From: Butyrivibrio fibrisolvens 16/4
GTDB taxonomy: Bacteria; Bacillota; Clostridia; Lachnospirales; Lachnospiraceae
Length of the DNA: 56,342 bases
Direction of reading: 5' to 3'
NCBI GenBank assembly: GCA_000209815.1
Contig: FP929036.1
Location: 1,586,513 to 1,642,854, forward strand
In this document: piece by piece, positions 10,977-26,234 of the stretch
Layout of the letters: the number at the start of each line of letters is the position of its first letter
Position numbering within the stretch: the first letter of the stretch is position 1
Notes under the pieces: model-generated
Databases searched by the model: none
Seen by the model: the letters and a program-made list of their open reading frames with translations, nothing else
Told to the model about the DNA's origin: nothing
Program-made: the position numbers and the translations under genes

Positions 10977-11070
10977 AAGCTGGTAAGCAACAAGCTCTTA
11001 GGTTTCTCAAGCGAAGCATTTTACGCTGAGCGGAGAAACACTAAGGCTTGTAGCTGTGACCAGCTTTTTG
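10977..11070 (+). terminator. Long nested hairpin ending the mms operon
   Basis: Four nested helices can form over 90 bases: AAGCTGGT/ACCAGCTT (10977-10984 with 11059-11066), CAAGC+CTTAG/CTAAG+GCTTG (10991-11001 with 11041-11050, one bulged T), GTTTCTC/GAGAAAC (11002-11008 with 11033-11039), and an inner AGCG/CGCT. A T-run follows. It works as a terminator by design but is far longer than the others here, so it may also be a stable 3' element or a small RNA. Confidence 0.65.
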
Positions 11071-25451: not shown

Positions 25452-25880
25452 ATGAGCAGGATTCTTGGTCTTGATTATGGGACAAAAACAGTAGGGGTCG
25501 CTATTAGTGACCCTTTACTTTTGACTGCGCAGGAATTTGAAACTATCACTCGTGAAAGGGCCAGCGCACTTCGTCATACCCTTGTTAGAATCAAAGAGAT
25601 ATGCGAAGAATATCAGGTTGAAAAGATTATTTTAGGTTATCCTCGCAATATGGACGACAGCGAGGGCTTTCGTTGTGAAGATACACTTGAATTTAAAAAG
25701 CTTTTAGAAAAGCGTGTAGATATTCCAATAGAACTTGTTGATGAGCGACTTACTACCGTATATGCGGATGAGATTCTTGAGGAATCTGGTGTTGCAAAAA
25801 AGGATCGCAAAAAGGTTATCGATCAAATTGCAGCCGCGATAATACTTCAAGATTACTTGGATAATAAAATTAGCCAGTAG
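25452..25880 (+). CDS. ruvX: RuvX/YqgF family putative Holliday junction resolvase
   Basis: 142 residues with an RNase H-like fold. ILGLDYGTKTVGVAISDP carries the first catalytic Asp, GYPRNMDDSEG follows strand 4, and LVDERLTTVYADE holds the second acidic site. DQIAAAIILQDYL with Asp near residue 127 completes the triad. Orthologues are linked to 16S rRNA 5' processing and to recombination. It begins immediately after ireB. Its last codons (AGC CAG TAG) form one arm of the predicted RNA structure before the next gene. Confidence 0.9.
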   Translation: MSRILGLDYGTKTVGVAISDPLLLTAQEFETITRERASALRHTLVRIKEICEEYQVEKIILGYPRNMDDSEGFRCEDTLEFKKLLEKRVDIPIELVDERLTTVYADEILEESGVAKKDRKKVIDQIAAAIILQDYLDNKISQ

Positions 25881-25970
25881 ATATCAAGCTCATATAATTG
25901 TCAAGCGAGACATCTAGTCCAGGGGACAATTAAATGGCTTGATAGGGTAACTGGCGGACTAGGAGTAAGC
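25873..25970 (+). ncRNA. Candidate pseudoknotted cis-regulatory RNA in front of the DUF1292 gene
   Basis: Four helices are seen by eye. P1: GCCAGT 25873-25878 with ACTGGC 25950-25955. P2: TATCAAGC 25882-25889 with GCTTGATA 25937-25944, continued by CAT/ATG. P3: TAATTGTC 25895-25902 with GACAATTA 25925-25932. The 22-base P3 loop contains CTAGTCC 25914-25920, complementary to GGACTAG 25956-25962, which directly abuts P1 and runs into the AGGAG ribosome site 25961-25965. The loop-to-downstream pairing makes it a pseudoknot touching the Shine-Dalgarno of the gene at 25971. I do not recognise it as a known riboswitch class. The helix positions are direct observation; a regulatory role is inference. 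Confidence 0.6.
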
Positions 25971-26234
25971 ATGGAAAAGATTATTTTATCCGGAGAAGAT
26001 GGAGAGGATATTGAGTTTTTTTTATTAGAAGAAACTGTAGTATCTGGAAATAAATATCTTCTTGTATGTGACAGTGAAGATGAAAATGAAGATGCAGAAG
26101 CAGCTATTTTGAAAGAGGTTTCTGCTGATGGCGATGATGTTATCTACGAATTTGTTGAAGATGATGTTGAGTTTGATGCTGTTGCAAAATTATTTGGAGA
26201 ATTAGTTGGCGACGAAGCTGACATTGAAATGTAG
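25971..26234 (+). CDS. DUF1292 family protein (YrzB / UPF0473)
   Basis: A strongly acidic 87-residue protein: KIILSGEDGEDIEFFLLEET, then YLLVCDSEDENEDAEAAIL and YEFVEDDVEFDAVAKLF, the standard DUF1292 layout of beta strands around acidic turns. Function is unknown; it is conserved next to ireB and ruvX across Firmicutes. AGGAG lies five bases before the ATG and is partly involved in the predicted pseudoknot. The rnj gene follows after 36 bases. Confidence 0.85.
   Translation: MEKIILSGEDGEDIEFFLLEETVVSGNKYLLVCDSEDENEDAEAAILKEVSADGDDVIYEFVEDDVEFDAVAKLFGELVGDEADIEM

Follow-up and report, generated by a model that had tools for sequence, protein, structure and literature searches.

A REP-like, genus-restricted family of dispersed stem-loops in Pseudobutyrivibrio, encountered between ruvX and a DUF1292 gene

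The window analysed here, a whole stretch of 56,342 nucleotides from the genome deposited as Butyrivibrio fibrisolvens 16/4, carries a group of genes whose order, by Pfam, is IreB, RuvX, DUF1292 and then RNase J. It is in the 90 bases between the ruvX stop and the DUF1292 start that an original prediction, made from the letters of the DNA, had placed a pseudoknotted RNA reaching into the ribosome site of the DUF1292 gene; the distance and the identity of the three neighbours (IreB, RuvX and DUF1292) are as it had described them, and the segments of which it had built its structure, namely P1, P2, P3, the loop heptamer, GGACTAG and AGGAG, are all present where it had put them (Table 1). The element and its neighbours are closely interlocked, the final T of the P1 5' arm being the first base of the ruvX stop codon, and the Shine-Dalgarno sequence of DUF1292 sitting just outside P1; the string TAGGAG is found in many ruvX-DUF1292 gaps without the element too. 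P2 is formed by TATCAAGC (25882-25889) with GCTTGATA (25937-25944), plus CAT (25891-25893) with ATG (25934-25936).

Table 1. Features of the ruvX-DUF1292 gap, and a second copy of the element, in window coordinates
Feature	Position	Strand	Basis
ruvX	25452..25880	+	Pfam PF03652
DUF1292 gene, ATG at 25971	25971..26234	+	Pfam PF06949
Dispersed stem-loop element, copy c1 (G000:C1:1612383-1612469)	25871..25957	+	covariance model R1 79.9 bits, R2 77.9 bits
P1 5' arm GCCAGT, pairs with 25950-25955	25873..25878	+	segment check in sequence
P1 3' arm ACTGGC	25950..25955	+	segment check, family alignment
ruvX stop codon TAG, from the element's GTAG	25878..25880	+	ORF list; G301 also has the stop cagTAG
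Conserved unpaired A of the asymmetric internal loop, facing GUA 25947-25949	25879	+	alignments
Conserved GUA, rarely GUG, opposite the unpaired A of the internal loop	25947..25949	+	alignments
P2 5' arm, bulged U at 25890	25882..25893	+	sequence, fold, family alignment
P2 3' arm	25934..25944	+	sequence, fold, family alignment
P3 5' arm TAATTGTC	25895..25902	+	sequence, fold
P3 3' arm GACAATTA	25925..25932	+	sequence, fold
Apical stem GAC/GTC (25909-25911 with 25917-25919), family-conserved	25909..25919	+	fold, family alignment
CTAGTCC, heptamer of the loop in the proposed pseudoknot; found here, not conserved	25914..25920	+	pairing-run counts, orthologs
GGACTAG, proposed partner of the heptamer; covers first two Shine-Dalgarno bases	25956..25962	+	sequence
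AGGAG, Shine-Dalgarno of DUF1292	25961..25965	+	sequence
Second element copy in the window (G000:C1:1597489-1597578)	10977..11066	+	R1 76.7 bits

The minimum-energy fold of positions 25860-25990 (RNAfold; the centroid is the same) consists of P1-P3 and has an energy of -35.7 kcal/mol, against a mean of -21.6 (sd 3.4) for shuffled sequences, none of which, among 200, was as stable (z -4.18); the expectation that so much pairing would be unlikely by chance is thus borne out for the hairpin, which is more than a chance structure. Nor is it confined to this gap. A search of the genome with a stretch of 131 bases returned, besides the query itself, seven diverged copies (69-78% identity) and three short matches; the covariance model R1, built from eight copies of this genome and one of G153, a genome of the same genus, gave 51 matches in it (150 of 455 candidates scored), with E-values down to 1e-22 and only three matches below 45 bits. 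A second model, R2, built from the copies of this genome, returned 64 rows (150 candidates scored), made up of 51 sense places, a further short place known beforehand and 12 rows reading known places in antisense; one of its sense places was new with respect to R1, and the two models together give 52 places in a genome of 3.16 Mb. In 50 of these copies the element measures 85-93 nt, about 88 nt being usual; four partial copies were met in the same genome by pattern.

The range of the family is narrow. With 38 candidates scored per genome, R1 matches 28 of 29 Pseudobutyrivibrio genomes and none of 87 genomes from the family's other genera; with 11 candidates scored per genome, R2 matches two of 397 family genomes, both Pseudobutyrivibrio, and none of the remaining 395; and a consensus pattern run over 84,980 named genomes found at least 111 stretches, all 80 among the matches listed being from Pseudobutyrivibrio. 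Within the genus, copy numbers (150 candidates scored per genome) run from 65 in G299 and 20 in G314, both of which counts contain a few weak rows, through 6 in G302 and 1 in G305, to 0 in G317. Plasmid and phage records searched with one copy as query gave no match, and the same holds for viral contigs searched with the consensus pattern. An Rfam search, which the original prediction had proposed, found no class at the cut-off either at the gap or in seven further copies: Rfam 15 at gathering score returned for the window solely a tmRNA elsewhere and nothing at the element, the three matches at the gap up to E 10 remain well short of gathering, and the seven copies, also taken up to E 10, gave none near the cut-off. 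Among the papers listed, judged by titles and the opening parts of abstracts, with supplements and subscription journals outside that coverage, no prior description of the element was found, and none joining Pseudobutyrivibrio with miniature inverted-repeat elements. Over the material covered, the element is confined to one genus, Pseudobutyrivibrio, and the family is an undescribed one.

What the aligned copies have in common is the fold more than the sequence. In this common fold, P1 (about six pairs) is followed by an asymmetric internal loop, in which a conserved A lies opposite GUA; beyond it come P2, which is long and has a bulged U, and then P3, and the whole is capped by an apical stem-loop. 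The copies also share primary sequence outside the variable stems. The alignment of copies from the window genome (A4) has 53 rows, two of which repeat a copy and one of which is an antisense reading; its 50 own copies serve for the counts of context, its 51 distinct rows, the antisense one included, for covariation, and all 53 for the pseudoknot. In the 51 rows, standard pairs fill 91.1% of cells and 30 of the 34 pairs have changed on both sides; the score for covariation, 0.627, compares with 0.174 after shuffling and no more than 0.109 when partners are slid, figures that come from an alignment fitted to the covariance model and hence favouring structure; an alignment of nine sequences by MAFFT, not fitted to a model although the structure was drawn from one of the nine, gives 0.422 compared with 0.156 and at most 0.104, respectively. 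P1 is paired in 99.3% of the cells of the 51 rows, with changes on both sides in five of its six pairs, and the apical GAC/GTC stem in 84.6% of cells. The stems for which the original prediction had proposed a covariation check thus covary, and heavily so, and the alignments point to a structure that is under selection. At least two types of apical loop, GCGAGACATCTAGTCGAGCGG and AAGGAGCCAATCTCGCGACGG, are carried on the same stems in A4, and a third type is AAAGGAACATCTAGTGACTGAAA.

The same gap in related genomes bears directly on the reading given in the original prediction, a cis-acting translational riboswitch or protein operator of DUF1292 whose loop pairs with the Shine-Dalgarno region. 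The DUF1292 gene is detected in 28 of the 29 genomes of the genus, and the gap before it is readable in 27, the contig of G317 starting at the DUF1292 gene; a full element is present in five of these gaps (the window genome, G153, G310, G313 and G301) and missing from the other 22, with a damaged copy of 18 bits in G308 and remnants, seen by eye, in G304 and G299. No model match was obtained at 28 DUF1292 loci of other genera (gap readable in 27). Homologous gaps without the paired segments, which the prediction itself had named as evidence against it, are accordingly frequent in the genus, and a device made for DUF1292 is further contradicted by the occurrence of the element at 52 places. In 12 of the 27 gaps, all of them without the element, the ruvX stop lies just 1-2 bases ahead of the DUF1292 start; in the window genome and in G301, the stop TAG of ruvX is given by the element's GTAG. 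We infer that an insertion would break an overlapping and probably coupled ruvX-DUF1292 junction. The further suggestion that the RNA uncouples DUF1292 from the genes before it survives in part, as the physical separation is there to be seen; a loosened translational coupling of DUF1292 to ruvX would be its expected effect at this site.

The 7-base match of CTAGTCC with GGACTAG, which the riboswitch or operator reading invokes, is real, and so is the structure around it, both overlapping the ribosome site of a DUF1292 gene that lies directly downstream; what is not found is conservation. In the window copy this is the second longest loop-to-downstream match among the 53 rows of its own genome. 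Over 192 copies (those above 95 nt were left out), however, runs of at least seven occur three times against 3.3 expected with shuffled partners, and the mean run is 4.10 against 4.13; in the 53 own rows there are two such runs against 0.8 expected, and the mean is 4.26 against 4.27. The other four full-length copies at the same gap have longest runs of 3, 5, 4 and 3, compared with 7 in the window, and the pseudoknot would need the GTC of the conserved apical GAC/GTC stem, so that the two pairings are mutually exclusive. As a feature of the family, the pseudoknot is rejected for these three reasons, namely its chance level over the copies, its absence from the orthologous ones and its clash with the apical stem; it may form in the RNA of the window alone, and selection for the pairing is not visible in these data.

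The surroundings of the copies were taken from 190 of them, orthologs included and thus not independent, with neighbouring genes called by a home-made program based on codon usage; here, as in the ortholog, identity and G-U/A-C counts given below, copies longer than 100 nt (one, with an extra insert in its loop) were left out. Among the 181 copies with both neighbours called, 118 are sense copies with co-directional genes on both sides, 33 have convergent neighbours, 29 are antisense and a single one has divergent neighbours, compared with about 20 expected from the share of divergent pairs in the gaps of at least 60 nt in stretches of G303 (58 of 536). Placement is thus behind genes, co-directional or convergent, for 180 of the 181; half of the sense copies (59/118) are at most 30 bases from the upstream stop, and for 24 of the 29 antisense copies the gene on the opposite flank has its stop at most 35 bases away. 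A string AGGA or GGAG, similar to a Shine-Dalgarno sequence, follows within 12 nt in 38 of the 118 sense copies, which counts in favour of a translational device. Against this, the genes behind 37 sense copies, the window one included, look unrelated (six of them, by Pfam, are DapA, DHFR, Ham1/RdgB, GpsA, MraY and SMC), and no coherent regulon is visible among the downstream genes. The element resembles the cis-regulatory riboswitches and leaders of Rfam as an mRNA structure whose stems covary while its internal core is conserved, and differs from them in this lack of a coherent downstream gene set and in the missing gathering-score match at the copies tested; taken with the many gaps that lack the element and the fate of the loop pairing, this makes a riboswitch or operator of DUF1292 very improbable.

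A T-rich tail is found in 35 of 180 copies, that is in 16 of 118 sense, 5 of 29 antisense and, most often, 14 of 33 convergent ones. Some copies thus resemble intrinsic terminators, in that they end in a U-run at the 3' ends of genes or occupy the place of a relative's ordinary terminator, as identified by eye; at some places the element ends genes, and some copies may double as terminators. Unlike intrinsic terminators, most copies are without a U-run, including the window copy, which continues as ACTAGGAG directly behind the stem, and all share sequence motifs; since the tail occurs in only 16 of the 118 co-directional sense copies, termination cannot be their general job. That we are dealing with chance hairpins or ordinary terminators that merely look similar, a reading to which these tails would lend some colour, has next to no probability: the sequence held in common outside the variable stems, the low E-values of the model matches, the restriction to one genus and the missing U-run of the window copy are contrary to it, and the 51 R1 matches, together with that restriction and the covariation, refute it.

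Between related species the element is present or absent at the same site. Of the 50 own copies, 16 have a site that could be matched in the 1.175 Mb of G303 (P. ruminis CF1b) used for comparison: 11 of these sites, the window site among them, have no element in G303, one has P1 arms only, and four keep the element, with P1 the same or nearly the same and with divergent inner stems in which pairing is mostly preserved. Between G303 and G319 (0.7 Mb), 7 of 21 sites were matched, three without the element, three with it and one with a remnant; of the three shared copies, one is 98% identical, one has a different inner part and one a foreign palindrome in the loop. A larger set of 69 ortholog pairs, reduced to 53 by dropping long elements and distant flank matches, comes largely from loci met by the consensus pattern and is therefore biased and not independent, some pairs sharing genomes. 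Flank identity is about 87% or higher in 18 of these pairs; among them the two elements agree at 96-100% in 11 (three of them from one trio of genomes) and at 75-89% in seven, which suggests that copies tend to be retained with hardly any change or else replaced; one pair at 96-100% lies between near-flanks of only 54% and 56%. The near-identity in 11 of the 18 close pairs looks more like a kept function than like a selfish repeat. Within the window genome, no two of the 50 copies are 90% alike (median pairwise identity 65%, maximum 89%), and this absence of near-identical copies speaks against a recent burst of copying.

Dispersed palindromes of this kind invite comparison with REP elements, which are described as palindromes of 20-40 bp, of GTAG and CGTC families, lying behind genes (PMC3733652). 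The likeness to that description extends to the many dispersed palindromic copies, mainly behind genes with co-directional or convergent neighbours and plausibly transcribed, and to a GTAG that can donate the TAG stop of a flanking gene, as it does for ruvX (PMC3733652). Unlike REP elements as portrayed there, ours is 85-93 nt long rather than 20-40, is strongly sense-oriented, and has its GTA internally, between P1 and P2 and with the GT paired with AC in P1, the REP tag being unpaired and basal. A Y1 transposase (PF01797) is present in only 10 of the 29 genomes of the genus, so that the RAYT expected to accompany REP elements is not generally there, and RAYT/IS200 is rejected as the general mobiliser. 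Failing in size, tag and RAYT, the element is not filed as a REP; the family is a REP-like, genus-restricted stem-loop family.

With MITEs of prokaryotes (PMC10969869), the element shares that it is short, non-coding, dispersed, and present or absent between relatives; unlike them it has no recent near-identical copies and a strongly conserved structure, and neither a parent transposon or other mobilising enzyme nor a secure target duplication was found in the genomes compared. One clean empty site (G303/G319, L170) allows a duplication ATTTA, the DNA being AT-rich there. A search of the window genome with the pattern of the element's ends met no transposon in the non-copy matches viewed (9 of 9 and 7 of 13, about 200 bases each), which are remnants of the element (e.g., bare P1) and sites inside genes; among the matches viewed there were only these and known copies, and none of them speaks for the ends of the element being those of a larger transposon. 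Integron attC sites and known ribozymes, to which the end motifs do not appear to fit, were set aside.

From these comparisons a plain non-autonomous transposable repeat (of MITE or REP type), without function and with its pairing kept only for mobilisation, comes out as unlikely. It would account for the dispersed copies, for the presence and absence at orthologous sites, for the partial copies left behind and for a placement like that of REP elements (PMC3733652); set against it are the patchy occurrence of the Y1 transposase, the lack of near-identical copies, and the small proportion of weak matches in the window genome, where only three of 51 fall below 45 bits even though four partial copies were met by pattern. 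The strand on which the pairing is maintained gives this reading further weight. Over all 34 pairs and all copies together, G-U cells outnumber A-C cells by 264 to 79, and in 25 pairs, picked after that count by dropping those with many other mismatches, the ratio is 72 to 8 for sense copies, 26 to 1 for those between convergent genes and 14 to 5 for antisense copies. This excess of G-U over A-C shows that it is the sense strand of the element that folds. Where a copy is antisense, the message contains the complementary strand, and selection acting on that message should favour A-C; G-U nevertheless leads. Selection in place in every message explains this less well than a property of the strand of the element itself, whether inherited or used in some other way, and a role in the mRNA becomes slightly less probable, the plain repeat more so.

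A recognition module, in which an RNA-binding protein or RNase specific to the genus would read the A/GUA and apical loops and control the processing or stability of about 50 mRNAs, with copies kept by selection and exchanged between sites, is in our estimate unlikely. The conservation of the internal features while the stems covary, the strong sense orientation, and the elements of 96-100% identity in 11 of 18 close ortholog pairs, including the one between dissimilar near-flanks, would be in its favour; the high turnover, with 11 of 16 matched sites lacking the element in P. ruminis CF1b, is not, and the ortholog counts are in part biased by the pattern by which loci were fetched, the trio of genomes supplying three of the 11 pairs included.

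The reading that we consider probable is that the feature in the window is one copy of a genus-restricted, REP-like dispersed stem-loop that acts as an intercistronic or 3'-end structure of mRNA. Copies directly behind stop codons would lie in transcribed DNA, and the hairpin would work in the message, between cistrons or at its 3' end, where it may protect or mark the upstream message with respect to exonucleases or processing, and may, if followed by a U-run, act as the stem of a terminator; the element itself would behave as a mobile or replaceable module. On a bolder and rather unlikely reading, the family would be an undescribed structured RNA class of Pseudobutyrivibrio whose A/GUA and apical loops are read by a genus-specific protein or nuclease, some fifty interchangeable hairpins forming one post-transcriptional layer over operons, with copies exchanged and pairing kept. 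With 52 places, 30 of 34 pairs covarying, a single genus and no Rfam entry, the family lends itself well, as a natural system, to the study of how the dispersed palindromes of bacteria originate, spread and gain work in mRNA; it also illustrates how a gene-by-gene reading of a single copy can mistake a dispersed element for a dedicated riboswitch.

A few individual copies deserve mention. The second copy in the window is followed by a T-rich stretch; the orthologous site has an ordinary terminator, as judged by eye, in G303 and an 88% identical element in G319. The sole copy of G305 (L095) lies between genes which, from a reading of their proteins, resemble those of glucose-1-phosphate thymidylyltransferase and RmlC, and perhaps arrived with the sugar operon. 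At L358 (G319:C10), orthologous to L153:215-304, the place of the element is taken by a different insert, roughly 200 nt long, that contains palindromes and has inverted ends (CAGCAACTT...AAGTTGCTG); it has no Rfam match at gathering score and is probably another dispersed structured element. At L162:12950-13116 (G303) a further palindromic insert occupies the apical loop, the orthologous copy of G319 being without it. In the window genome, a type-B copy at L104:1501-1585 has immediately behind it the 3' half of a further element, which gives the impression of one copy inserted into another. Three tandem copies about 130 nt apart are found at L236:4407-4761 (P. xylanivorans MZ8), and tandem pairs in L222, L225 and L276 as well; finally, the copy at L230:5085-5173 (MAG RGIG7542), whose P1 arms are unmatched (GCAAGT with ACAGGC) where those of the MZ8 ortholog match, looks like a recombinant of two copies.
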